Below the pieces are notes generated by a model. That model did no database searches. It worked only from the letters and a program-made list of their open reading frames with translations, and had not been told where the DNA came from. Positions 28,976 through 58,139 of a DNA stretch of 64,000 bases are shown one piece after another. Each line of letters starts with the position of its first letter. Position 1 is the first letter of the stretch. The DNA lies in assembly GCA_031841125.1 (NCBI GenBank), contig CM063106.1:186001-250000 (forward strand), written 5' to 3'. The stretch is from Acanthococcus lagerstroemiae (taxonomy: Eukaryota > Arthropoda > Insecta > Hemiptera > Eriococcidae). Made by a program: the position numbers and the translations under genes.

Positions 28976-30180
28976 TTAAATAATTCTTTTGAGCAAAATC
29001 TTTTTGGTTTGTTGTAAAGAATTTTTAAGAATTTTTTTTTGGCTAGGGATTACCGGTTTTAGATTTGTTTTGTATGTAGCCCCCCATGCCGAAATTCCGT
29101 ATTGGATTTTGGATTGAATCATTGCCATATATATTATTCGTTTCGTTCTGTTCGGTATCATATTTTTTACTTGTAAGGCTAGATAGATTGTTTTCAGAAG
29201 TTTTGCTGCTATCATTTTTAAATGTTCTTTCCAGTTTAGGTTTTTATCGATTGTAACTCCTAGATATTTAGTGTTTTGTACTTTTTGTAAGGTTTGACAT
29301 TCTCCCTTTGTACCATGATTCTTATCTTTACATTTTGTCTTGTGAACAAATATGTTTACTTCTTCGTTGTTTTTTCTTTTATTCTTTAGTCCAAACTGTA
29401 TGAAATTTGTTTTTTTAAAATTCAGGATAAAGTTGTTATTGTTTAGCCAGGTTATTATCTTCCCTAGATCTTCCTCAGTTTTTTGTTTCACCTTGTCCCA
29501 GGTTTCTCCCTTTTCTATCATAACTGTATCGTCTGCATATGAGATAATTTTTCCTTCAATGTCTATCATCCCTAGTTCGTTCATATATATCAGAAATAAT
29601 GTGGGTGACAGTGCTGACCCCTGAGGTGTACCTACCCTTGTTTCAAGATAGCTACTTTCGTCTTCTCCTATTCTAACTTTTGGTTTTCTGCATTTTAGGT
29701 ATGATTTGAACCACTCCAGCACCTTTCTTCCACATCCTGCTTCGTCAATTCTTTCTATGAGCTTCTCGTGTTCCATTAGGTCAAACGCTTTTGATAGGTC
29801 TTGGAAAACGGCGATACATTTTTTCCCATTATCAAGATAGCTTATTAATGTATTATGTAATTCATTAATTGCATCTTCAGTTCCCATATTTCTCCTAAAC
29901 CCTAACTGACTTTCCACAAAGTATTTGTTTCCTTCCAGATGTGCTATAAGTTTTCTTTTACTGCTTTTTCTATTATTTTTGATATATTTGATAATAGGGA
30001 GACTGGCCTATAGTTATTAATGTCTTGTACGGTTACCTCCCTTATATATTGGCCTGATAATAGCTTTTTATAGTTTACTGGAAAAGTACCAGTGCTCATA
30101 CTTAGGTTGATCAGGTGTGTTATAGGTTTTGCAAACTTGTCTCTATTATCTTTTATTATTTTTGCGGGGATTCTGTCCAT
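28976..30180 (-). pseudogene. LINE reverse transcriptase
   Basis: RT part of the LINE ORF2. The N-terminal block (29944-30180) has MDRIPAKIIK and INNYRPVSLLSNISKIIEK. The main block (28976-29917) has QLGFRRNMGTEDAI, FQDLSKAFD, GTPQGSALSPTLF and the catalytic YADD, followed by KYLGVTIDKNLNW. A frame change near 29930-29944 separates the two. Upstream frames at 30376-30573 belong to the same ORF2. Confidence 0.92.
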
Positions 30181-30842
30181 ACCTGCGGCTGCGTTTAGTT
30201 TTAGGCTGTTAATTATCTTCTTTGTCCTATGTACAGTTACTGGGTTAAATTTTTCCCATACTTGTTTTGTTACCCTATTGCTTTTGTTTTTCGGTATTGT
30301 GATATTTAAATCCCCTCTGTCCTTCCTTATTTTCTCTATTTCTTTTTTTATTATGTCTATTATGTTAGTATAGTGTTAGTTAAATGCCTCTGTTATATCT
30401 TGCTTATTTGATGTAATAGTTCCTTTAACCATTATACTTGTTGGATCCTTATTGTCCTTTATCCCTTTTCCATCTTTTACGACCTTATTGAGGGTTTTCC
30501 ACATTTCCTTACTATTAAAGGGAGTATTTTTTATTTGGATTGCATAATATTCCATTTTCCTTTTCTTTATCATGGCTGTGACTTCATTTCTGTACGCTTT
30601 ATACTGCCTATTTAATTCCTAGTCTTGGGGTTTTTTCCTCACTTCCAGGTGCAATCTATCTCTATATCTAATCTTCTGTATCAGCATTTTTGTTATCCAT
30701 GGTTTTAGTTTAGTATGTTTTTTCTTTTGTTTATACTTAAATTCGTTTTTCCTAGTATTCTTTTCATTATTGTGGCGAAGTTCTCAGTCGCTTCATTTAC
30801 ATCGGTCTTTTTTTATTACTTCCTTCCATTCTTGTTCGTTTA

Positions 30843-31243
30843 CAGGGTTGCCACTTTCTGGAAAACCGGGAAAAGTCAGGGAATTTGGTCAGTCAGGGAA
30901 AAGTCAGGGAATTTTCATTTAAGTCAGGGAAATTTTCTGAAAATAACAAACGTGTTCGTATTTTATCAGAGTAAACTTTTTTTATCATAACATAAGAATA
31001 ATGATAATCTATTCGCAAATGAAATAGTCTATAATATTGAAAAATATTACATAAATTACATCTGTACCTTCTTCTTCTCGATAGCGATTTTTTTTTAAAT
31101 CTGTATTGTAAAAAATTTCTGTGACTCTCCTCCCTCTGGGCTTTCTCGGAATCCTGTAAAAAAGTCAGGGAAAATTGGAAATGTTGGCCTGGAAAACCGG
31201 AAAAAGTCAGGGAAAACCAATCCTGAAAAAAGTGGTAACCCTG
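30843..31243. mobile_element. CAGGGTTGCCACT-ended MITE inside the LINE
   Basis: Ends CAGGGTTGCCACTTTCTGG and, inverted, CCAGGGTTACCACTTTTTTC. Flanked by GTTTA on both sides (30838-30842 and 31244-31248). The interior repeats GTCAGGGAAAA words. It interrupts LINE ORF2 downstream of the endonuclease end (SKITDHYPTLISI). No transposase; superfamily uncertain. Confidence 0.85.
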
Positions 31244-31299
31244 GTTTATATCTTTCTTTATTCCCACGTGATTGAGCCCTCTTTTGACAAGATTTACTT

Positions 31300-32105
31300 T
31301 CTTTGCTTTTTCTTTCTTGAGATCTTCTTTTTTTATTGAAATTAATGTGGGGTAATGATCTGTTATTTTTGAGAGTAGGACCACTGTAGTTTTGATTTCG
31401 TTTATATTTTTCATAGGGTAGAAAATATATGATATAGACATGTTCTTGTTTTGTTTGCTACTCTCGTGTACTCGTTTATGTAGGGAATTAATCCAATTTC
31501 CGCCATTGTATAGTTAGGTATAGGTTACTGAGGTCATTTAGGGTTCTAATATCTAGGTTGATGTCTCCTGCTATCATTATTCTTTTTTCATTCATTTTTT
31601 TATTACTGTTTATAGTTTCCTTTAGCTCTTTAATAAAGGATTTTGCATTTAAGTTTGGGGGTCTGTAAATAGCATATATTATAATATTCTCCCTTTCTAA
31701 GTCTACTATGAGCCCAATCATTGTTTCCGAGGTTATTTCAGTTATTTTGTATTTCTCAATGTTTCCTTTCAAGTAAACTACTACTCCATCGTTTTTATTT
31801 TTATTTCTTTTTGTGTAGTACATATTATATATTTTTATATTAATAGTTTCCTCGGTACCTACGTTTTCTCTTAGCCAGCATTCTCCTAATATGATTACGC
31901 TGGGGTTTATTTTAGTATATTCTAGTATTATTTGTAGTTCATCTAGATTTTTTGCAATACTTCGGATGTTAGCGGCAAACAATGTGAAGTAGTTAGTTTG
32001 GGTTGCGTTAAAGGCAGTAAATTGTAATGGTGTCATCGTCTTGTTCGTAATGTTTGTGTATTGTTGTAGTTTATTTGGGTTATCTTCACATGAAGTAGTC
32101 ATCAT
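31300..32105 (-). pseudogene. LINE endonuclease
   Basis: N-terminal apurinic-like endonuclease of LINE ORF2: FAANIRSIAKNLDELQIIL, INPSVIILGECWLREN, VVVYLKGN, IYAIYRPPN and IMIAGDINLDI, the usual order of catalytic blocks. A frame change near 31490 precedes the SKITDHYPTLISI block (near 31340), after which the MITE intervenes. Confidence 0.88.
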
Positions 32106-32255
32106 GTATATTAGGTTGGGTTTTTACTTTTATTTTCGATATCATAATCTCTAGTCTAGTTACCTGCATTATACTATTTTATCTAAATCTTCTTCGGTGT
32201 ACACGTTAACAATGGCACTGTGCTCTGTTTTCCTGCATTTGATTCTCCCTTTAAA

Positions 32256-33017
32256 CTACCAGAATTGCTCGTATTTAGCCGCCTTATATCTTGCCTTTGT
32301 CTGTATGTACAGGTCTCGATTGTTTTTCGTGAGATTCGCGTTAATGTAGATTTCCTTCTCTGGGGTACCTGTATTTTTATCGCTTTGCCTCATTCTCAGC
32401 TCCTTCTTCTTCTTATTGTGGATGAATCTGTATGCAATTCTGGAACTGTTGAACGTTACAATTATTATAGGGGGTAGTCTTCCCGCTTCTGTTTTTCCTC
32501 CTAATCGGCGGCTGTTGAGTATTTCTCCGTCTTGTAGAGGAACTCCTATAGCTGCAGCTATATTTTTGACTATTTGATCGGTTGATTCATCATTTGATAT
32601 CGGATAGTTATATATTTTGATATTTTTATTTCTGTCATGCTGTTCCTTTTCATTTATTACTTTACAGAGTCGGGCATTATCTTTCTTGACTGTATCCATC
32701 TCGGATTTGATGTTACCGATCCTCCCTTCATGCTCCTCTACTTTTCTGACAACTTCCGAATACCTTTCCTTCATTTCCTTTACCGCAGCCTCGATTATGT
32801 CCAACTTCTCTAATTTTTTTGTAATGTTTTTGAGCATGGCCAACGTTTTATCTTCTTTATCCATTTTTTCTCTGCAGTCTTTGCTCTTCCAATGTGAATT
32901 ATTTGGGAGTATACCACATATACAGTTATGGTGTATGGTAGACAGGCAGGTAGCACAGATGACAAGCAAAGTATTGTGAGAAACGAATGATCCACACTCG
33001 GCACACCTATTTACCAT
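32256..33017 (-). CDS. LINE ORF1 (PHD-like zinc finger, coiled coil)
   Basis: An uninterrupted frame of 253 residues. Residues 5-35 form a Cys/His finger (CAECGSF, CATCLSTIHHNC). Residues 50-125 are charged and heptad-like, consistent with a coiled coil. Residues 130-245 include KNIKIYNYPI and RLGGKTEAGRLPPIIIVTF, like the RNA-binding part of LINE ORF1 proteins. It likely coats the LINE RNA. The PHD-like finger at the start is known from insect CR1-type ORF1. Confidence 0.85.
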   Translation of the reverse strand: MVNRCAECGSFVSHNTLLVICATCLSTIHHNCICGILPNNSHWKSKDCREKMDKEDKTLAMLKNITKKLEKLDIIEAAVKEMKERYSEVVRKVEEHEGRIGNIKSEMDTVKKDNARLCKVINEKEQHDRNKNIKIYNYPISNDESTDQIVKNIAAAIGVPLQDGEILNSRRLGGKTEAGRLPPIIIVTFNSSRIAYRFIHNKKKKELRMRQSDKNTGTPEKEIYINANLTKNNRDLYIQTKARYKAAKYEQFW

Positions 33018-45174: not shown

Positions 45175-47535
45175 AATATACATCAGGAATTATTTTGGGC
45201 GAAAATATTTTCCGAGAGCTTCGGGCGCGTACTCGGTGAAATAGATTTGAAATGCCGAGACGAATTCAGAACCGTCGTCAAAATTGATTCACAGGCTGTT
45301 TCTGACCCCGTATAGCCCCGGCCCCCAGTTTAACCACATTTTTGACTGTATCTCGGCAATCGAGGGTCAGCGTCTGATTTAGTCGACGAATCCGAACTCA
45401 GCGCGAAAAATTGAGTAGGAGTTTGTGGTTATCTCATCTTTTTTGAATTTAGAAAATTTAGAAAATTTCTCCATACTTATACATCAGGCATTTTTTTGGG
45501 CGAAAATATTTTCCGAGAGCTTCGGGCCCGTACCCGGTGAAATAGATTCAAAATGCCGAGACGAATTCAGAAGCGTCGTCAAAAGTGATTCACAGGCTAT
45601 TTCTGACCCAGTATAGACCCCGCCCCCAGTGTAACCAAATTTTTGACTGTATTTCGGCCACGGAGGACCAGCGTCTGATTTGGTCGACGAATTCGAACTC
45701 AGCGCCAGAAATTGAGTCAAAAACTGTCTTTAATTCAAAATTTTTAATTTTTTCGGATTTTGAAAATTTCTCAAAATTACATCATGTCTTTTTTCGAGCA
45801 AAAATATTTTCGGAGAGATTCGGCGTCGGCGCAGGTGCTATAGTTACTCAGTTTTTCGAGACGAATTTGAATCTGTCGTCAAAATTGAGCTGCAGTCATT
45901 TTTTCTCGCAAATTGACCAATACTTCCAACTATTACGAGTGTATCCCGAGAACGGAGCGTCCCTGCCGAATTTGAACACCCAATTCAAACTCAGCGTGAA
46001 AAATTGGTTCAAAAACAGTCTTTATTTCAAGATTTTTGGTTTTTTCGAATTTTGAAAATTTCTCCATACTATCCTTTTTGGGGCCACAAAATCTTGGTGA
46101 GCTTCGGCGCTGGGGCGTGTGCTACTTACTCAATTTTTCGAGGCGAATTCAAATCCGTTGTCAAAATTGAGCTACACTCATTTTTTCACCCAAATTGACC
46201 AATTTTTCCCACGTTTTCGAGGGTATCTTGAGAACGGAGCGTCGCCGCGAAATTTGAACGCCGAATTCGAACTGATCGTAAACAATTGAGTCGAAGATCT
46301 CGGATAATTTTTTCGCCCAAAATAATGCCTGACGTATAGTATGGACGAATTTTAAGAATTTTCGAATTTCTAAAATACTGAGATAGCCACCTTATCCTAC
46401 TAAATAATTCGCGCCGAGTTTGAATTCGTCGACCAAATCAGGCGCTGACCCTCCGTTGCCGAGATACAGTCAAAGATGTGGTTTCACTGGGGGCTAGTGC
46501 TACACTGGGTCAGTAATGGCCTGTGAATCGATTTTAACGACGGTTCTGAATTCGTCTCGGCATTTAGATTCTATTTCGCCGGGTCCGGGCCTCGAAGCTC
46601 TCGGAAAATTTTTTCTCCCAAAAAAATTCCTGATGTGTACCTAGCAATTTTCAAAATTTTCGAAATTCCAAAAACTTTAGATAACAAGAAATTCCTACTC
46701 AATTTTTCGCGCTGAGTTCGAATTCGTTGACCAAATCCGGCGCTGACTCTACGTTTCCAAAATACAGTCAAACTTGTGGTTATACTGGGGACAAGGGCTA
46801 TACTGGGTCAGAAATAGCCTGTGAATCAATTTTGACGACGGTTCTGAATTCGTTTCGGCATTTCGAATCTATTCTGCCGGGTCCAGGCCCCGAAGGCCTC
46901 GGAAAATTTTTTCGTTCAAATGAAGGTCTGATGTATATGGAGAAATTTTCAAAATTTTCGAAGTTCAAAAATTCTGAGATAACTTCCAATTTCTACTAAA
47001 TTTTTCGCGCGGAGTTCGAATCCGTCGACTAAATCAGGCGCTGACCCTCCGTGGCCGAGACACAGTCAAAATTGTAGTTATACTGGGGGCTGGGCTATAC
47101 TGGGTCAGAAATTGCCTGTGAATCAATTTTGACGACGGTTCTGAATTCGTCTCGGCATTTCGATTCTATTTCGCCGGATCCGCGCCCCGAAACATTCGGA
47201 AAATTTTTCGACCAAAAAAATGTCTGATGTACGTATGGAGAAATTTTCAAAATTATCGAAATTCCAAATAGGTGAGATAACAAGAAATTCCTACTCAATT
47301 CTTCGCGCTGAGTTCGAATTCGTCGACCAAATCAGACACTGACCCTGCGTTGCCGAGATAGAGTCAAAAATGTGGTTAAACTGGGGGCCGGGGCTATACG
47401 GGGTCAGAAATAGCCTGTGAATCAATTTTGACGACGGTTCTGAATTCGCCTCGGCATTTCGAATCTATTTAACCGGGTATGGGCCCAAAGCTCTCGGAAA
47501 ATATATTCGCCCAAAAAAATGCCTGATGTATATTT
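45175..47535. repeat. FB2 central 300-bp units, inverted about 46300
   Basis: Left-half units, each with TTTTCCGAGAGCTTCGGG, GCCGAGACGAATTCAGA and CTGACCC, start near 45182, 45482, 45783 and 46070. Right-half inverted units end near 46327, 46631, 46928, 47222 and 47521. Outer units are the best conserved. Confidence 0.85.
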
Positions 47536-47960: not shown

Positions 47961-48133
47961 GGCATCACACCCGAGCCCCCACCCCTTCCTGGGGGGGGTC
48001 GTGGCTCATATCCACACTGTTTTTACTTTCACCACAGGTTTCTTCGTTATCATTGTTGCCCAATCCGATGCGCAAAAACAGAAGTGTCGTTGCCTGAAAC
48101 TATCGCACTTTCGCCTCATGAGTTTAAAAAAAG

Positions 48134-49445
48134 TGATGCATGGGAATTGGAAAACAATCCCGAGCTCATATTTGTGGTGAGTGAAGAAACGTCTTCAGAG
48201 CGAAACAAGAAAACCAGGGATGCCAATAGTTTAATAGATAATTGCATAAAACAAAAACATGGAAAATAATTAATCACAGATAAATACGAAAAAGGACCGA
48301 TTGAAATTTGGGGAATCAAGCCCTTGCCCGTTGGTACAAAACCTTATAAAAGAGCAATAAATATGAAAAGGACTGATTGAAATTAAAAGGAATCGAGCCG
48401 TTGCCAGTTGGTACAAAACCTTATAAAAGAGCTAACGGTACAATAACCTTATTAAGGGCAGATGGAGGCGACAGCCTTATAAACAAAATAAATTAACAAA
48501 TAAACATTAAAAAGGTGTGATTTTGAATTTTGATATGAGAACAAGCCAAAAGGTGGATACCATATTTCTATCGCCCCTGGATCCTCCGAAAGGGGCCCTC
48601 CGAACGTTCGGAGGGAATCGTCACTAACAAATAGAGTTCATATATAAAGTATAGGTACGAATTCCAACAAAAAATCAATTTAAGGTACCTGTTGGTATTG
48701 CGAGCCAGGTGCAGAAAGAGCTCTCTCGGCTGCCTGAAACAATTACATTATGCAACAAAAACATATTAATACAATCGAAATTCCTCATCTATGTTAATCC
48801 CACGGGTCTGCTTGTTCTGGATAGTAATATGCTCCTCATGATCTACGTTGTCCATCTGCTACTGCCTGCCCCAAAATCCTAGTATGAGCTTAGCTCGACA
48901 TTCCGGGAATCGTCTGGATCATCCTACTAGATCTCCGTCTCGGTGAAGCGACAACAAACTATATGGATGTTCGCTCGAATCTTTTTAGATCCAACCGCTC
49001 ATTGAAAAAATACGAGCATCCAGCTCACGTTTAGCTCACGTTTTACACGAGGTTGAAAAAACTGAAAGCACCGAAGATCTTACTTTGTATTAAAGTTACA
49101 CTGACACCGGTAATGGACGCGATAGCCAGTTTCCAAAAACCAAATTCGACGATTTCACAAAACGAGTATGATTTCCATCATATGACCACGTTTACAGACC
49201 GCTCATTGAAACGACGAGGCAGCTTCCAAAACTTCGCACGAACGTGCTTGCAACAATCAAGCGAATACGACCAAACGGTAATACGATACAAAGAGACGAT
49301 GGTTAGCCGGCCGAATGCAAGAGAGAGAAAAAACCACCGATAAGGCGATACGCTTCAAGCTTCAACTAGTTGCCTTACCGATACCAGTTTAGCCCGGCGG
49401 AGCAACGTAATTTCTCTACCTAGTCGATATATTTCCCATGCTACA
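48134..49445 (-). repeat. 3' LTR of the SGNH-Gypsy (1312 bp)
   Basis: Ends TG...CA. It carries two tandem copies of a segment of about 70 bases (about 48290-48435), each with GTTGGTACAAAACCTTATAA followed by AAGAGC. The minus strand just upstream has a purine-leaning stretch (AAGGGGCATC), a possible polypurine tract. Confidence 0.95.
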
Positions 49446-49525
49446 GATGCCCCTTGGGGATGGATCAGGATCCTGGGCCATGCCCAAAGATGCATGGGAG
49501 CAAGTCCTATCAGTTCTTGGATACA

Positions 49526-52500
49526 TCATGGGCGGCGGATTAAGCGCAGCTGACGGATATTCACAACAAATGGGACTGCATCAGGGTCAACCTTGGCTAC
49601 CAAATATGCATTGGGACACCAGCGTTGTAAGATGATGTACTCGCCTTCGAACCTTTTAAAGAATTTTTTGCTTAGCCCATAATATGCTTGGGAAAGAGCA
49701 TGCGTCTTAAGTGCGACAATATCACCTTCTCGAAATTGGTTGGATTTTGGTGGAGATTGAATAGAGGCAAGATGACTTGATAATGATTGTCTATTATTTA
49801 TCTTCATTGAAACATATTGTCTGATACATTGAGTTATGTTGTTATCCCGATTCGAGCAAAAGTTTAGACAATTTTGTGCCGATAAATAAGATTGGAATGT
49901 CCTCCCTACATAGAAATCTGCCTCTAGGTTGCCAAAGTCTACAGCATGACCATTCGTGTGCAGGATTTGAACACAATCTCTATCCAATATGGACACACGC
50001 TCGAGTAGAAGCTTCAATAAATCAAAATTTGCGTAGCTACAAAATCTACTACTATGGAGCGAGAAATTCTCAGAATTGAACAAATCTACAAGATAACAGG
50101 AATCTGAATGAATGACTACCTTCTTAGCACCATTTCGAATTGCAATATCTAATGCTCTGATACTGGCAATAATTTCGGCCCGATTATTAGTGACCTTTGG
50201 AATAATTATCCTGGATTCATTATATCGATTCTCTTCTCCAAACCATACGGAATATGCTGATAGTGACTCTTCCTGCCCATTTAAAAGAGCACCACCATCA
50301 GTCCAGATATGAACAGCACCATTTCTATCAAAAATGAACTTTCCGTGTTTCTCAAACGAGGGTATTACAGAGAGTACACTGGCTTGCATCTCCATGCTGG
50401 CAATCATCCTGATCAAATGTTCCTTGGGGTGAGGTATCTGATAACGAATATTAAGGTCATTCAAAGGGGAGAGTTCTAGAGATTTTCCAATAATTTCTAA
50501 AGGACTATAGCCATGCCATTTGGGTGCAGTATTGAGAGAGGATTGCACGCGATCAGTCTCTCGGTACCACGCAGAGTGATCATATTGTGGTTTGTTTGGA
50601 TCATTTATAAACAGACGGAGTTTTTCACCAATGCTTCGCATAACGCGCTCAACCGGATTTGCATTTGGGTTGTAGGGAGTAGTGTACCTCTGTCGAATGG
50701 ACTTTGATAGAAGAAAGCTTTTCCACTGATTGCTGCGAAACTGTCGAGCATTATCTGATAATATATTTTTGATCATGATATCCTGTGTTGCATATTCATG
50801 GAGTATTTTCTCAAGGGCATAAATAAAACTTGTGGTGTTCATTGACTTCATGCGTCTAATTGAAACATAACCGGAGAAAACATCCATGGCGACAAAGAGA
50901 GCAATAACGCCATTGGGACTAAGGGGAAGAGGTCCATAAACATCAACTGAGAGTAGTTCACCAGGCTCAAACGCCAAGACTGGTTGTGGTTTAGGCTCGG
51001 CTCGGCAATTTGGGGACTTATTTTCTTTACACGGTAGACATTGCGATACAATTCTTCTTACCTGAGTATCAAGATTTGGGAAGTAAAATGAGCGATTGAT
51101 TAGGGTTGTTGTCTTGTTAACGCCCGGGTGACAATAGAACGTGTGATAGAAATTGATAATATGAGTGATGATCACTGCTGGAACAACAATCAGCTTAGAT
51201 CCATCTGATGCGTAATAAAGAACATCGTCTGCAAGTAGGAAGGTTTTGCGGAAATTCCCAAGAACGTGGGCATCACTCTTCAACCTATTGGTCATCTTTA
51301 GACAAAAAGGGTCACTTTTCTGAAGCTCGACAATCTCCAACAGTGATTCCCTGAGGATGGCTGCAGCGGCCTCTTCTGGAGTTCCAGATTTTTTGCCTCC
51401 AGCTGCACAAATTGCACAGCAATTCGTTTTAGGGTTCATGATATTAGGCTCATCGTTATCGGGAGAGGAACTAAAGAGAGATACTTCTGGGGTTACCTGA
51501 TTCTGAATTGGACAATGTATCTCTAACTGTTCCACTAAATAGAGCGCAGCAGAGATGTGGCTACCATGGAGATATTTCATCAGCCTATCGAACTGGGGAT
51601 CTTTTTGAATACAGAAACTAAGATCAAAGGAACGAATAAAGACATACCACTTCGCCACTAGGCGATTGATACTTGCCAACTCGGAAAATTGGTCGATGAG
51701 TTTTACGAATTGATTTTCTATATGGATATTTCTGTCCACTAGTAACACCTTATATCGCCGGAGTGTAATATAGAGAGCATATAGAAGCTTTAGATCCTGG
51801 GATTTATTTATAATGGAGCTTCCTATTTTGTGGTTAACCATCGTAATGATCTTTGGTTCATGCAACGCCTTGTCTATTTGGAAAATACAGCCTATAACAA
51901 AGTTGGAAGAGACTTCTAATTTAATGAGGAAAGGCTTGTCTGGGGAAGGATACCACAGAGGTTGATCATTTTTAAATGCCTTTTTAATCTGATCAAAGGA
52001 TAGTTTCAAACCTTCTGTAATCAGGAAAGGAGGGTTCTTTGACAACAGATCTAGGAAAGGCTGAACAATATTCTGATAATTAAAGATAAATCTGCTGAAC
52101 CAATTTGTAAAGCCTAATAGCTCTTGTATGGGCTTTTTTGATATTAATCGACTCTGGTTACAAAGATATTTGTTTTCAAATACATCAAAGAAAGTTAGTT
52201 TGCTAATGTCTCTTGTAAAGAACTCTGGATGCATTATGTGACCAAGAAACTTAATAAATGGTTGGAAAAGGATCGTTTTGCTGAGAGACAGTGTCATCCC
52301 TGAATTGAGGACATTTGAGAAAACAGTAACCATCTGGTCTAACAGAGTGTCAAAATCGGTACCTTGGAATTTGATGTCATCTATATACAGCTTAACATTC
52401 TGGATATTTACTCTAGGGGAATATATTACCGATCGAACTATTGAATTGAACGTTGAGGACGATACTGAGGTCCCAAACGGTAATCGATTGTAGCGGTAGA

Positions 52501-54313
52501 TTGTTCCTTCAAACTCCATTCCAAGAAACTCAGCTGAGCGATTGTCTAAAGGAATCTGTAGAAATCCGTTTGAAAAATCTGAGCAACAATACAGGGCTGC
52601 TGGTTGCTGGTCAAACAACAAATCTTCCAATTTTGGGGGATTATGATGTTGAGGCCTTAGAATACGGTTCAAGGAAGTGGCATCAACACAGAGTCTGATA
52701 GAACCATCTTTTTTCTCGACTACTACTAATGAATTTACAAAGCGGGTGTTACTTCGTTGAATTATGCCCAACTTCTCTAATTTACCGATCTCATTTCGAA
52801 CCTGTTCCCTATGAGCAAGTGGGAGTGGGTAAAGTTTAGGGGTCCACCGCTCAGTAGGAGATATATCAAACGAGGCCACACCGTTACGGTAAAGGCCTAG
52901 CTCACTTCGGAATACCGAGACTATAGGACTGAGACGACGATAAGCTAAAGCCCCTTGTTCTTTACTAATATAAGATTTTTGTACGGAATATTCAATTTTC
53001 TCTTTGAGAGTTTTCAGCAAAGTGACATATTCTCCGTTGAACATCTTTGGGAGAAAACCAGAGTTTGAAGTAGCGGCTGATTGATGACTAGGAGTAATGG
53101 GCAATAGCTTAGGATAGAAACTCTGGATACTAACAGGTCTCAAACATTCTCGGATTACCTTCAGCTCATCAGCAGCCGGATGGGAAAGGCGATATAAAAT
53201 GAAGTTCAGGGAAAAGGGTCCATGCTTCTGACTTATACCTGTTATAGTTTGCCATTCGTAGGAAAGGTGCATGGAGAAACGTGTGAAGATATCTGACCCG
53301 AAAATATAGTTTCCATTCATGTTTGGTATGATGATGAAAGGATGAAGTTCTTGGGACTGCGGCCAAAACGGTATTGGAAGAATGGTATAATAATTTACAT
53401 TAGTATGGCCTGTGACCAATGCAATGTTCATTGGGCGTGTGAGTTCGTATTTTTTCAATTCCGGATTAGCCTCAGAGATCTGCTTCCAGGAGTCTTCGGA
53501 CATGCAGGAAATTGATGCCCCTGTGTCCAGCAGGGCTTGCACATGTACACCTGCAATGTTATATGATAATTGAGGTACGGTCGAGAAAACACTATTCGGC
53601 TCTCTTCGAGCAGGGGCTTCTACTTGAAAGTTGACGAGGAAATTGTCAATCTCTATTTCGGGGCTATGGTTCGCATTGGTAGTAGTATTTGCTGGTTCAA
53701 TGTTTGGAGCTAGAACATGGCTCTTCAATTCTCTTAGTATATGGCGGATGAGATCATTAGAAAGAACGGCTTGATTTTTAAAACCTATTCGAAATGCATT
53801 AGAAAATATATTCAAGTTCAGTTTGGGAGCGCCCTTTATTTGTACAAATACTTCATCAGTTTCACTCCTCTTAGAATAAACAAACTGACTGATATCAATC
53901 AACTCTATCTTTGGCGAGAAATCCTGAGCTAACCTGGATATCGCTTCTAGAATTTCCTCATAAAATTTCCACCGGACAATGTCCTTTTCACTGATGGAAG
54001 GGTAAGGTAGTGTCTTAAAAAGAAATATCTTACTCACACCGCGTTGTAACAATAATAGAATTAAATTCTGGAAAGTTTCCTCAAAATTGAGACCAGTGTC
54101 ATAGGCCGAAGGACCAAGGAGAGTATCAATATATCCAATTGAAAGAAACACATAGGGATGGAATCTGTCACATCTTTCGAGATTATTCAACAAAAATTTG
54201 AGGGTTACAAACTCCCGCGCTAGGTGATAGCGGGCAAAAGACGTTGGACTTTTCCGGAAATATCTGAAGTTGCAATATTTAGCCAACTGGAAAGCTACTG
54301 TATCTCCTATCAA
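49526..54313 (-). CDS. Pol: SGNH-like, protease, RT, degenerate RNase H, integrase, second RNase H, integrase C-terminal domain
   Basis: 1595 residues from the first internal Met; as a Gag-Pol fusion it adds about 47 residues from the frameshift. Residues 1-200: SGNH/GDSL-like (LIGDTVAFQLAKY, VFLSIGYIDTLL). Protease DTG 263-265. RT 490-700 with LPFGTS and YIDD 643-646. RNase H at 790-900 lacks catalytic residues (LEVS, SQDLK, IEN). Integrase zinc finger H1057, H1062, C1092, C1095; core D1124, D1187, E1222 (DD35E). Second RNase H 1333-1475 with D1339, E1380, D1404, H1456, D1466. C-terminal GPY/F-like domain from 1527 (GDIVALKTHALS, FKRFEGEYIIL). No stops. SGNH is the least certain call. Confidence 0.93.
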   Translation of the reverse strand: MIGDTVAFQLAKYCNFRYFRKSPTSFARYHLAREFVTLKFLLNNLERCDRFHPYVFLSIGYIDTLLGPSAYDTGLNFEETFQNLILLLLQRGVSKIFLFKTLPYPSISEKDIVRWKFYEEILEAISRLAQDFSPKIELIDISQFVYSKRSETDEVFVQIKGAPKLNLNIFSNAFRIGFKNQAVLSNDLIRHILRELKSHVLAPNIEPANTTTNANHSPEIEIDNFLVNFQVEAPARREPNSVFSTVPQLSYNIAGVHVQALLDTGASISCMSEDSWKQISEANPELKKYELTRPMNIALVTGHTNVNYYTILPIPFWPQSQELHPFIIIPNMNGNYIFGSDIFTRFSMHLSYEWQTITGISQKHGPFSLNFILYRLSHPAADELKVIRECLRPVSIQSFYPKLLPITPSHQSAATSNSGFLPKMFNGEYVTLLKTLKEKIEYSVQKSYISKEQGALAYRRLSPIVSVFRSELGLYRNGVASFDISPTERWTPKLYPLPLAHREQVRNEIGKLEKLGIIQRSNTRFVNSLVVVEKKDGSIRLCVDATSLNRILRPQHHNPPKLEDLLFDQQPAALYCCSDFSNGFLQIPLDNRSAEFLGMEFEGTIYRYNRLPFGTSVSSSTFNSIVRSVIYSPRVNIQNVKLYIDDIKFQGTDFDTLLDQMVTVFSNVLNSGMTLSLSKTILFQPFIKFLGHIMHPEFFTRDISKLTFFDVFENKYLCNQSRLISKKPIQELLGFTNWFSRFIFNYQNIVQPFLDLLSKNPPFLITEGLKLSFDQIKKAFKNDQPLWYPSPDKPFLIKLEVSSNFVIGCIFQIDKALHEPKIITMVNHKIGSSIINKSQDLKLLYALYITLRRYKVLLVDRNIHIENQFVKLIDQFSELASINRLVAKWYVFIRSFDLSFCIQKDPQFDRLMKYLHGSHISAALYLVEQLEIHCPIQNQVTPEVSLFSSSPDNDEPNIMNPKTNCCAICAAGGKKSGTPEEAAAAILRESLLEIVELQKSDPFCLKMTNRLKSDAHVLGNFRKTFLLADDVLYYASDGSKLIVVPAVIITHIINFYHTFYCHPGVNKTTTLINRSFYFPNLDTQVRRIVSQCLPCKENKSPNCRAEPKPQPVLAFEPGELLSVDVYGPLPLSPNGVIALFVAMDVFSGYVSIRRMKSMNTTSFIYALEKILHEYATQDIMIKNILSDNARQFRSNQWKSFLLSKSIRQRYTTPYNPNANPVERVMRSIGEKLRLFINDPNKPQYDHSAWYRETDRVQSSLNTAPKWHGYSPLEIIGKSLELSPLNDLNIRYQIPHPKEHLIRMIASMEMQASVLSVIPSFEKHGKFIFDRNGAVHIWTDGGALLNGQEESLSAYSVWFGEENRYNESRIIIPKVTNNRAEIIASIRALDIAIRNGAKKVVIHSDSCYLVDLFNSENFSLHSSRFCSYANFDLLKLLLERVSILDRDCVQILHTNGHAVDFGNLEADFYVGRTFQSYLSAQNCLNFCSNRDNNITQCIRQYVSMKINNRQSLSSHLASIQSPPKSNQFREGDIVALKTHALSQAYYGLSKKFFKRFEGEYIILQRWCPNAYLVAKVDPDAVPFVVNIRQLRLIRRP

Positions 54314-54435
54314 CTGGAATGTCTTATGGACCAGCTTTATTTTACCAATATCAAATTTGGCTGATAACTCTTGTTTTGTTGATGGAATATTTTGAGATAC
54401 TGGATTGAGGCAAGGGTCACCAACTGACTGGTCCT

Positions 54436-55944
54436 TCAGGGTGACCTCCTCTCGTTTCCCTGATGGGAACTATGGTTAATATTAGGATGAGACTGATGGA
54501 TGGGACCTTCATTGAACCGGTTCGTTTGTGGATTGTGCCAGGATTGATGATCCGATGAATAATTGTTATTTTGATTATGAGGACCCCTGTTTCCTACATG
54601 AAACTCAGAGAAATGATTCGCTCCCTGATTGCAGTTAGTCCTTGGACCATTATTATTTGAACGGAAGTTGTTTCCACCATTTGTACCTTGATTAGGTCGG
54701 GAGTTCCAATTGTTGTTTTGGTTACAAGAATAATCATGATTGAACCTATTATCTCTTCTATACTGATGAGAGCCCGAAGCTTCAGGCTTATCATTGGGAT
54801 CGGATCTTTCATAATTCGTACCGTGGTTATGATAGGGCTTCGCATGGCCTGACGGAAAGTGTGACCGATTTCGATCATTAAAATTAAAGTTGGAATTCTG
54901 GGACTTCTTATAGTTATGTTTATCTGAATTTTCAATTCTCAACTGAATACCCAGCTCGGAATAATTTCGGACAACAGTTGTTAATGTCTGTAAGAATGTA
55001 TTAATGTCATTCATACTGAAAGGAGCAAGGGCACGCTTAACTTCATATGGTAGCTTATTCTTTATTTTATTGATTGCTTCATGAGGTGGAATGGGACTTT
55101 CTGTTAACGAAATTAATCTTGAATACCAACTTAAAATATCTACCCTTAGCTGAGACAGATTATTGAAGTTGAATTTGAATCTTTCAAACTCGTCCCTAAT
55201 TGCTAGCTGCGAGTGTAAATTCCAGAATGTATGAATGAAAGCATTCTTAAACTCTTCATATGAATTACATCTCGTTGACAGATGGTCATCCCAATTCGAA
55301 TTGGGCACTTGCACTCGTTGCCTAAGCCACATTATCTGGTGCAACTCAGGGGGGTTATAAATTTCAAACCATCCTTCCATTTCGTCAATAAATTTGATTG
55401 GTGCGATTTTTCCATCATCTTTGAAGGTGGGAAGACACTCTGGGATTGTGAACACTTGCTGATAAGCAGGGCCTAAAGGACGATTGTCTAATTGAGGGGG
55501 CATATACTGGGGGTTAGTCTGCAGGCGACTCATCAGCTGGCTACCGAACGCCCGTAAATGAGAGGCCACCTGTTCAGCTGTATACAGGCCTTGCTGATTT
55601 CCAACCAGACCTGCCGGGTTTATGGGTTGTTCCGAGTTAGTATTTTGTCCTGAAGGCAGACCAATGTGGTTATTTTGACTATTCAGAGCACCCAGTAGGT
55701 CACCATCTTCTTGTACTGTACTGCCACCATTATGTCCAACAACTGGATGGGTGGGAGTTACCCCATTATTATCTGCCGTGCGAGGGCTTGTTGCTCTATT
55801 ATTGGGATGTCTAGCTATTGGTGATACGGAAAATCGCATGAAGCTCTGAGTGACCTCCTCCAATAAGTCCTCTTGCTCATAATTTTGGAGCCTACGGGGT
55901 CGCAGATCATAACCGCAGGAACGATGATCGTCCCCTCTACTCAT
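54436..55944 (-). CDS. Gypsy Gag, 502 aa, Asn-rich tail
   Basis: Structural protein of the element. Start at ATG 55944 (MSRGDDHRSCGYDLRPRR). Residues about 150-330 look like a Gypsy capsid (FTIPECLPTFKDDGKIAPIK, FIDEMEGWFEIY, QLAIRDEFERFKFNF, INKIKNKLPYEVKRAL). From about 345 the chain is low-complexity, rich in Asn, Gly, His and Arg (NNNWNSRPNQGTNGGNNFRS). There is no CCHC zinc knuckle, so RNA binding would rest on this tail. It ends after GGGAAAC with ERRSP and TGA. Confidence 0.92.
   Translation of the reverse strand: MSRGDDHRSCGYDLRPRRLQNYEQEDLLEEVTQSFMRFSVSPIARHPNNRATSPRTADNNGVTPTHPVVGHNGGSTVQEDGDLLGALNSQNNHIGLPSGQNTNSEQPINPAGLVGNQQGLYTAEQVASHLRAFGSQLMSRLQTNPQYMPPQLDNRPLGPAYQQVFTIPECLPTFKDDGKIAPIKFIDEMEGWFEIYNPPELHQIMWLRQRVQVPNSNWDDHLSTRCNSYEEFKNAFIHTFWNLHSQLAIRDEFERFKFNFNNLSQLRVDILSWYSRLISLTESPIPPHEAINKIKNKLPYEVKRALAPFSMNDINTFLQTLTTVVRNYSELGIQLRIENSDKHNYKKSQNSNFNFNDRNRSHFPSGHAKPYHNHGTNYERSDPNDKPEASGSHQYRRDNRFNHDYSCNQNNNWNSRPNQGTNGGNNFRSNNNGPRTNCNQGANHFSEFHVGNRGPHNQNNNYSSDHQSWHNPQTNRFNEGPIHQSHPNINHSSHQGNERRSP
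54454..54460 (-). promoter_or_regulatory. -1 frameshift slippery site GGGAAAC (SGNH-Gypsy)
   Basis: In Gag phase it reads CAG GGA AAC GAG, that is G GGA AAC. The -1 frame is open from here (REEVTLKDQSVGD) into pol. The Gag stop lies 15 bases downstream. The heptamer is a canonical retroviral slippery site. Confidence 0.85.
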
Positions 55945-56744
55945 TTTACACAGAAGCTAATGGACAATATTTGGGGAGTAATAAAGACAATTGGAAATAT
56001 TAAAACTAACAAAATGCAATAACAATAGAAAAATAGTAACAACAATAGAAAAATCAAAATTAAACACCAATATAACGGATAGGGGCAGACAACACATAGG
56101 ACCAACTGATACTTTTCTAGGAAAAGATCTACAGTAAAAAACACTTTAAACGGAAAAATTTTGCATGGAATTTTCGTTCTCTCTTTTGGAAAGCTCATTT
56201 GGCCACTGGGTTTGAAACGATATCAAAGTACCAGCAGACAAATCCAAATTACCAATCTAGCAGGGAATAGCTAGGTCCTGGCCAGGTTTCCCTCGCCCTC
56301 CGGAGATGGTAACACGCAAAGGGTCCGATCTCCTGGCCGGCTCAAACGGCACACAGACATGCAGAAGGTAGCGGGGACAACTAATCTTCCACAGAGGTGT
56401 CAGAACCTAACCGCGCCAGTGGAGTAGAAAGGTAATTACTCCGGGAAAAAAAAATCAAAAGATTGATAGGGGAATATAATGAAATTTAGCATCAATAGAT
56501 GTTAGAAAAATAGTGGAGATTTTGTGACTAGTTCGGGACCAACTAGCTACTGGGAGTCTTATCGACTGAGCTTTATATGACAAGAGAGAGAACGGCCCCA
56601 ATAGCCCAAAGCTAAATTCTCCAGGGACAGTAAGAGCCAACCGCATCCAGTTGGTTATAATGTTTCAAACTGCCCCAGAGAATTAGCGCTAGAGGGATTC
56701 CAAGTAGTGGAGTACAGTCCCTACCAGCGGGATGACAAAAGATA
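55945..56744 (-). other. 5' leader of the SGNH-Gypsy
   Basis: About 800 bases between the 5' LTR and gag with no long frame. I could not match a tRNA 3' end directly after the LTR (TATCTTTTGTCATCCCGC), so the primer is unknown. Confidence 0.7.
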
Positions 56745-58056
56745 TGATGCATGGGAATTGGAAAACAATCCCGAGCTCATATTTGTGGTGAGTGAAGAAA
56801 CGTCTTCAGAGCGAAACAAGAAAACCAGGGATGCCAATAGTTTAATAGATAATTGCATAAAACAAAAACATGGAAAATAATTAATCACAGATAAATACGA
56901 AAAAGGACCGATTGAAATTTGGGGAATCAAGCCCTTGCCCGTTGGTACAAAACCTTATAAAAGAGCAATAAATATGAAAAGGACTGATTGAAATTAAAAG
57001 GAATCGAGCCGTTGCCAGTTGGTACAAAACCTTATAAAAGAGCTAACGGTACAATAACCTTATTAAGGGCAGATGGAGGCGACAGCCTTATAAACAAAAT
57101 AAATTAACAAATAAACATTAAAAAGGTGTGATTTTGAATTTTGATATGAGAACAAGCCAAAAGGTGGATACCATATTTCTATCGCCCCTGGATCCTCCGA
57201 AAGGGGCCCTCCGAACGTTCGGAGGGAATCGTCACTAACAAATAGAGTTCATATATAAAGTATAGGTACGAATTCCAACAAAAAATCAATTTAAGGTACC
57301 TGTTGGTATTGCGAGCCAGGTGCAGAAAGAGCTCTCTCGGCTGCCTGAAACAATTACATTATGCAACAAAAACATATTAATACAATCGAAATTCCTCATC
57401 TATGTTAATCCCACGGGTCTGCTTGTTCTGGATAGTAATATGCTCCTCATGATCTACGTTGTCCATCTGCTACTGCCTGCCCCAAAATCCTAGTATGAGC
57501 TTAGCTCGACATTCCGGGAATCGTCTGGATCATCCTACTAGATCTCCGTCTCGGTGAAGCGACAACAAACTATATGGATGTTCGCTCGAATCTTTTTAGA
57601 TCCAACCGCTCATTGAAAAAATACGAGCATCCAGCTCACGTTTAGCTCACGTTTTACACGAGGTTGAAAAAACCGAAAGCACCGAAGATCTTACTTTGTA
57701 TTAAAGTTACACTGACACCGGTAATGGACGCGATAGCCAGTTTCCAAAAACCAAATTCGACGATTTCACAAAACGAGTATGATTTCCATCATATGACCAC
57801 GTTTACAGACCGCTCATTGAAACGACGAGGCAGCTTCCAAAACTTCGCACGAATGTGCTTGCAACAATCAAGCGAATACGACCAAACGGTAATACGATAC
57901 AAAGAGACGATGGTTAGCCGGCCGAATGCAAGAGAGAGAAAAAACCACCGATAAGGCGATACGCTTCAAGCTTCAACTAGTTGCCTTACCGATACCAGTT
58001 TAGCCCGGCGGAGCAACGTAATTTCTCTACCTAGTCGATATATTTCCCATGCTACA
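56745..58056 (-). repeat. 5' LTR of the SGNH-Gypsy (1312 bp)
   Basis: Same length as the 3' LTR. Differences seen: CTGAAAGC versus CCGAAAGC and CGAACGTG versus CGAATGTG. Confidence 0.95.
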
Positions 58057-58139
58057 AAAGTATGAACAAAGACAACAAAACTGTGGATAGAATGGGTGTA
58101 TCTCTCAAAATATGGGTAGGATATGAGATACCGTGAAAA

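Follow-up and report, generated by a model that had tools for sequence, protein, structure and literature searches.

A Ty3/Gypsy-type long terminal repeat (LTR) retrotransposon from the hemipteran insect Acanthococcus lagerstroemiae carries two RNase H domains in its Pol protein, and the one with a complete active site lies inside the integrase. The element occupies positions 48134-58056, minus strand, of the window, by which we mean the whole stretch of 64,000 nucleotides that was analysed (assembly GCA_031841125.1, contig CM063106.1, positions 186,001 to 250,000). Judged from its sequence, it is a Ty3/Gypsy-type LTR retrotransposon with a dual RNase H in a variant placement, outside the retrovirus-like structure in which the two domains are adjacent. 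At the native position, the RNase H domain (RH1) is apparently stripped of its catalytic acids; the other one (RH2) sits inside the integrase, with the catalytic core before it and the C-terminal domain (CTD) after it. We consider it probable that this arrangement goes back to one event long ago, in which the integrase linker acquired a cellular RNase H1, followed by takeover of the RNase H role in reverse transcription and decay of RH1 to a tether.

Pol has the order protease, reverse transcriptase (RT), RNase H and integrase that matches Ty3/Gypsy, with a native RNase H that is without catalytic acids. The listed open reading frame (ORF), 49526-54313 on the minus strand, encodes 1595 residues and is stop-free, in a frame that is open from 54469. 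The features of Pol, with the evidence for each, are as follows.

49526..54469, minus strand: Pol open frame, the listed ORF beginning at 54313 (ORF list)
53711..54328, minus strand: N-terminal SGNH/GDSL-fold domain (predicted structure, structural comparison)
53264..53575, minus strand: aspartic protease, DTGAS (Pfam RVP, residues 247-350)
52235..52720, minus strand: reverse transcriptase, YIDD (Pfam RVT_1, residues 532-693)
51563..51931, minus strand: RH1, at the native RNase H position, without the catalytic D-E-D-D (Pfam, alignment, model, profile)
51014..51184, minus strand: integrase zinc-binding domain, H2C2 (Pfam PF17921, residues 1044-1100)
50519..50968, minus strand: integrase catalytic core, D1124, D1187, E1222 (Pfam rve, residues 1116-1216; model)
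49889..50317, minus strand: RH2, cellular-type RNase H, D1339 E1380 D1404 H1456 D1466 (Pfam RNase_H, residues 1333-1470)
49538..49747, minus strand: integrase C-terminal SH3-like domain with GPY/F-like motif (weak Pfam match, model strands, alignment)

A protein search with residues 1110-1595 returned 19 proteins, the first eight of which cover 88-100% of the query at 35-41% identity; all eight have a Pfam RNase_H match after rve, and the scale insect Parthenolecanium corni is the annotated source of one of them (P0008). An RT tree of 20 rows, in which the remaining 11 Pols of that search serve as outgroup, unites the window sequence and its eight relatives in a single group (support 100/100) on a long stem. 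RH2 lies between the integrase core and the SH3-like CTD in all nine members, its active site is complete in all nine, the histidine included, and the integrase DDE is likewise intact in every one. In the nine, the catalytic glutamate of the core is 302-309 residues away from the Gly-Asp of the CTD, compared with 105-119 in eight of the 11 other Pols (P0011, P0013 and P0017, which lack the motif, were left out), so the linker of the RH2-bearing integrases is about 190 residues longer. A second search with a Pol-length query (P0007) gave six proteins, of which one, P0045, was new; P0045 and P0021, which lie on contigs of equal length, are apparently the two parts of a single disrupted Pol and were excluded from the nine. 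Scans of viral contigs with the window RH2-CTD segment and with an RH2 alignment produced 10 and 24 pattern matches, respectively, none of which was confirmed.

By sequence, RH2 has also been inherited together with the RT. Pairwise RT and RH2 distances are strongly correlated (r=0.889, with 0 of 5000 permutations as high), as expected if one acquisition was passed down with the RT, and the integrase core shows correlations of 0.629 with RT (6/5000 permutations as high) and 0.791 with RH2 (0/5000). On the evidence of these proteins, RH2 within the integrase is a feature of a clade and not of one odd element. An assembly chimera or pseudogene fusion limited to the window contig would be in keeping with the single copy present there (a BLASTN comparison of the element with the remainder of the window returned nothing at 1e-3), but near-identical LTRs bracket the whole element, the Pol frame is intact and the domain order is common to eight relatives on other contigs. 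The relatives refute this explanation, which we rejected as having a negligible chance of being true.

Two proteins from the search have additional domains of their own. P0010 (1171 aa) has an RNase_H match (E 2.7e-31) at residues 111-252, past the end of a weakly matched protease and before the RT, a placement resembling Tat structure #2; in its native RNase H, D1 is replaced by Asn and D3 by Ala, making it another kind of dual-RNase-H Pol. In P0004, residues 1621-1673, beyond the integrase end, match the DM14 domain of CC2D1A/B (PF21528, E 5.9e-7), perhaps another host domain that was captured.

The decay of RH1 is evident from the columns of the alignment. Its catalytic acids are missing almost throughout the RH2-bearing Pols (D1 0/9, E 0/9, D2 1/9, in P0008 only, and D3 0/9), whereas the same columns keep them almost throughout the 11 other Pols (D1 10/11, E 11/11, D2 10/10 with one gap, D3 10/11), which bears out an earlier reading of the window, made from the sequence alone, that the normal RNase H position lacks D-E-D. 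RH1 appears to keep the RNase H fold with none of the four catalytic acids. The fold assignment combines a Pfam match (RT_RNaseH_2, residues 770-865, E=7e-8), the score against a Gypsy RNase H profile (27 bits in the window, 18-37 across the nine) and the secondary structure in the Pol model, where the strand-strand-strand-helix-strand order is that of RNase H; the structural matches on the list cover chiefly model residues 259-738.

The sequence-only reading had also placed a second RNase H, retaining D1339, E1380, D1404, H1456 and D1466, at residues 1333-1475, after a DD35E core and before a GPY/F-like end. The catalytic set recurs in all nine members and the domain order was confirmed, with 34 residues separating D1187 and E1222. 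The RNase H fold of this region, on which that reading stood or fell, is found alike by the model, by Pfam and by structural comparison, the model of RH2 sharing its fold and matching its catalytic set with metazoan RNase H1 (PDB 2qk9/2qkb). Against a cellular-type RNase H profile the window RH2 scores 78.1 bits, and the best of its shuffles (200 made, 157 reported) reaches 4.9, which excludes a chance match. At the CTD, the window protein matches Pfam SH3_Tf2-1 (PF24626) at residues 1530-1571 (E 0.04), and six of the eight relatives match at the corresponding place (E 0.014-0.11), all under the curated cut-off; the GPY/F-like motif reads GEY, GEF or GQF at the matching place in the alignment, and the end of the CTD is strand-rich in the model.

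By its sequence features RH2 is of the cellular RNase H1 type. The nine RH2s score 62-78 bits against the cellular-type profile and -0.6 to 8.2 against the Gypsy RNase H profile, with the reverse pattern for RH1 (each profile was built from nine sequences, cellular-type proteins in one and Gypsy RNase H domains in the other). Pfam calls RH2 RNase_H and not RT_RNaseH. As described in the literature, an active-site His marks the Fungi/Metazoa-like type and an Arg the archaeal-like type, and LTR-type RNase H has nothing conserved at this place (PMC5348765). An archaeal-like origin was rejected, the residue being His and not Arg in all nine. The order of the PDB matches suggests a metazoan RNase H1 as a possible donor.

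An origin of RH2 by duplication of the Gypsy RNase H already in the element is extremely unlikely. Both domains have the strand and helix order of RNase H, as a duplication would give, but a Gypsy-derived copy should not fall to 8.2 bits or less against the Gypsy profile while scoring 62-78 against the cellular-type one, nor be called RNase_H, nor have the active-site His for which LTR-type RNase H has no conserved counterpart in the accessible text (PMC5348765). A tree points the same way: Gypsy RNase H rows split from the rest at 100/100, and 13 RH2 rows cluster at 95/95, apart from the 17 rows labelled cellular (as stand-alone RNase H proteins) and from the nine Gypsy rows. Since this tree is unrooted, it defines Gypsy, RH2 and cellular sequences as three groups, cannot decide which two are sisters and does not by itself settle descent. 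It draws on 25 proteins from a search with the RH2 alignment, of which P0029, P0036, P0043 and P0044 were left out; P0020-P0023 are fragments and were used in the RH2 tree only.

The placement of RH2 allows the further possibility that the element's protease frees RH2, with or without the CTD, as a separate protein, the integrase remaining uninterrupted and the position being an accident of gene order. The linkers flanking RH2 are variable (mean pairwise identity 0.25 and 0.26; RH2 reaches 0.42 and the CTD 0.45), and cleavage there is conceivable. Release is nevertheless quite improbable: a conserved CTD remains downstream of RH2 in eight of the nine, and zinc-binding, core and SH3 domains form the common core of these integrases in the accessible account (PMC8632968), among which a core without a CTD would be unusual.

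Under the capture reading, an ancestor of the lineage would have gained a cellular RNase H1-type catalytic domain between the integrase core and CTD, and this domain would have taken over the removal of RNA in reverse transcription. The native RNase H would afterwards have lost its catalytic acids and would stay on as a connection or tether domain, by analogy with retroviruses, lokiretroviruses and Odin, in which the native RNase H has that role (PMC9040795). LTR elements are described as needing their own RNase H, reverse transcription being cytoplasmic (PMC5348765), and with RH1 dead RH2 is the only RNase H candidate that the element carries. Because the sole competent RNase H would be part of the integrase, reverse transcription would need a Pol in which RT and integrase stay uncleaved from each other, or else a stable complex of the two; there RH2 may reach the RNA/DNA hybrid behind the RT. 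Early reverse transcription in Ty3 is promoted by the integrase, apparently because it is closely associated with the RT (PMC5371799), and the linker between the catalytic core and CTD of this integrase is a long helix reaching outward (PMC8632968); a linker-borne RNase H could thus work in an RT-integrase complex or in an uncleaved RT-integrase. The sequences themselves show the architecture, the clade, the state of the catalytic residues, the cellular type of RH2 and its descent together with the RT; that RH2 is active as an RNase H, that reverse transcription uses it and that RT and integrase assemble are what we infer.

RH2 might instead be an active cellular-type RNase H that serves integration or other steps after synthesis, such as removing RNA from cDNA ends or from R-loops at the target, with host RNase H1 or some other source serving reverse transcription. 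Its fully conserved catalytic set would suit such a role, as would its position inside the integrase, within a linker whose Ty3 counterpart orients the CTD to face target factors (PMC8632968). Against such a role stands the loss of acids from RH1, seen also in the known dual-RNase-H cases (PMC10508981, PMC5348765) and expected when a new domain takes over; it also conflicts with the need of LTR elements for an RNase H of their own during cytoplasmic reverse transcription (PMC5348765). We regard an integration role in place of reverse transcription as unlikely.

Several observations weigh against capture and takeover or soften the evidence for it. The cellular-type profile was built from proteins found via the RH2 alignment, so the gap in bit scores is flattered; the Pfam results and the PDB search are free of this bias. 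Near the end of RH2 a stretch is modelled with low confidence, and its handle region varies; binding of the hybrid by RH2 may differ as a result. The PF24626 match to the CTD is weak and is not listed for P0005 and P0006, the C-terminus of P0006 is aberrant, and CTD distances follow those of the other domains less well (RT-CTD 0.548, 64/5000 permutations as high; CTD-RH2 0.502, 81/5000). A tRNA primer site was not recognisable directly after the 5' LTR (56685-56744).

Pol begins with a further, unusual domain. Its model, made for the window protein only, has an SGNH fold (predicted local distance difference test, pLDDT, 73; predicted template modelling score, pTM, 0.73; core near 90). The highest VIA-align Z is to the OSK domain of Drosophila Oskar (5a4a/5cd9; 17.1, root-mean-square deviation 3.0-3.1 over 176 residues), followed by EstL5 (Z 15.9); Foldseek ranks PAF-AH first and OSK fourth. 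Pfam gave no informative match up to E 5 (two unrelated families at 0.19), and a five-member profile of the domain matched SGNH esterases weakly among PDB sequences (8gkd, E 0.0024). Oskar is absent from the three PDB sequences matched by this profile at E up to 10, and the likeness to Oskar is therefore one of fold only. The catalytic Ser of the first block and the Asn of block III are missing, the motifs being GDT/GDL/GTG and GYID/GFSD/GLCD-type, and the same motifs occur in the seven Pols that extend into this region (window, P0002, P0003, P0004, P0007, P0008 and P0045); the domain is probably non-catalytic. The OSK domain binds RNA, and we speculate that the Pol domain could do so in place of a Gag that lacks CCHC, a zinc-knuckle pattern for which a search found no match in the window Gag or in the Gag part of P0008. 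GDSL/SGNH ORFs are described as ORF3 in LTR elements of bdelloids and also as ORF1 of non-LTR elements; a position at the start of Pol is not described in the accessible part of that source (PMC5408684).

The remaining features of the element are these.

48134-58056, minus strand: whole LTR element, 9923 bp, complete-looking
48134..49445, minus strand: 3' LTR, 1312 bp, TG...CA (LTR-LTR comparison)
56745..58056, minus strand: 5' LTR, 1312 bp (LTR-LTR comparison)
48130..48133, no strand, second copy at 58057-58060: 4-bp target-site duplication (TSD) AAAG, modest evidence in view of the A-rich flank
54436..55944, minus strand: Gag ORF, 502 aa, with an Asn-rich C-terminus and no match to the CCHC zinc-knuckle pattern
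54454..54460, minus strand: slippery heptamer GGGAAAC in the gag frame, with a 7-nt spacer and a 7-bp stem, GGUCACC/GGUGACC

The two LTRs have TG...CA ends and differ at 2 of 1312 positions; this is a young Ty3/Gypsy-type LTR element. The heptamer is the only one in the scanned gag/pol overlap region and is followed by a perfect 7-bp stem, and together they are a probable -1 frameshift site, although the region folds no better than shuffled sequence (z -0.58; 53 of 200 shuffles fold as well). Only 80 bases separate the end of Pol from the 3' LTR, leaving no room for an env gene, and no env ORF was found elsewhere: beyond Pol and Gag, the lone ORF of at least 100 aa inside the element encodes 113 aa and overlaps gag, in a list that reaches 58000. 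Upstream of the 3' LTR (49446-49495) there is only a short purine run. Near the element, a tandem array of ~298-bp units, 61-82% alike, lies at 46500-47530 of the window; LINE-like ORFs (reverse transcriptase, endonuclease and ORF1, of the long interspersed nuclear element kind), judged from their translations, lie at 28976-33017 and 1427-2164. Rfam gave 0 matches in the window.

Among the structural adaptations by which retrotransposons became retroviruses, replacement of RNase H is counted as one (PMC10508981). Here the same trade, a new cellular-type RNase H for a decayed native one, would have happened far from the RT, in the middle of the integrase. This is relevant to two accounts of why the replacement recurs: takeover by a better enzyme predicts recurrence at any site; a geometric need for an adjacent tether does not. 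The element offers a natural fusion for testing if RT and integrase function as a single machine, and by its example the linker between integrase core and CTD seems to tolerate ~190 extra residues. We lean towards seeing here a lineage whose reverse transcription relies on an RNase H that is integral to the integrase, so that one protein would both remove RNA and integrate DNA and the RT alone could not finish the cDNA, a lineage that would have arisen independently of retroviruses and of the plant and oomycete elements and whose Pol starts with an Oskar-like SGNH domain. If true, RNase H within integrase would add one more principle to those by which captured RNase H is placed. We found no description of such an arrangement in open PMC text; an earlier account in subscription papers, bioRxiv or Repbase is possible.

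A decayed native RNase H together with a complete new one is known from retroviruses, lokiretroviruses, Odin, plant Tat and the oomycete elements Archon and Chronos (PMC9040795, PMC10508981, PMC5348765). The sequence-only reading had taken known replacements to lie upstream of integrase and this element to be an independent case with a different site of acquisition. The premise stands for retroviruses, Odin/Loki, Archon, Chronos and Tat but was incomplete, Tat having five arrangements, none of them inside integrase in the accessible text. Independence is favoured by the position of RH2, its active-site type and its profile scores, and it is these on which it rests, the RNase H tree covering RH2, cellular-type and Gypsy rows.

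The LTRs and TSD of the element are those of Ty3/Gypsy, for which TG...CA LTRs and a TSD of 4-6 bp are given (PMC12440569); its LTRs are 1312 bp long with TG...CA ends and are flanked by AAAG. Troyka, with a 3-bp TSD, CG...CG termini, no tether and no GPF/Y (PMC12440569), was considered and rejected, as the element has a 4-bp TSD, TG...CA ends and a degenerate RH1. Ty3 itself shares with the element the RT, RNase H, zinc domain, DDE core, long linker and SH3 CTD, and its integrase aids reverse transcription, as is proposed for the element, but it has an active RNase H (D358, E401, D426, D469) in its RT, and the accessible text mentions no insert in the linker (PMC5371799, PMC8632968). Metazoan RNase H1 (2qk9/2qkb) is a free cellular enzyme, and by our reading of the alignment its handle region differs from that of RH2.

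Among the dual-RNase-H systems, Tat of land plants resembles the element in pairing an extra RNase H that has a full catalytic core with a native one that is decayed wherever the extra domain lies (PMC10508981). The extra domain of Tat is archaeal-like and is found beside the native RNase H, ahead of the RT, or in ORFs that precede pol or gag (PMC10508981), whereas that of the element is His-type and inside the integrase. Archon and Chronos are likewise Ty3/Gypsy elements with an acquired RNase H and a native one without conserved catalytic residues, but the acquired domain is archaeal-like, in a dual arrangement with the native one, and Chronos ends in a chromodomain (PMC5348765). Retroviruses, lokiretroviruses and Odin are alike in having turned the native RNase H into a tether and gained a Fungi/Metazoa-like one (PMC9040795, PMC10508981). 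In the retroviral, lokiretroviral and Odin cases, however, the new RNase H follows the tether, upstream of the integrase; in the element it is not adjacent to the native domain in any of the nine members and lies ~400 residues further on, after the integrase core.
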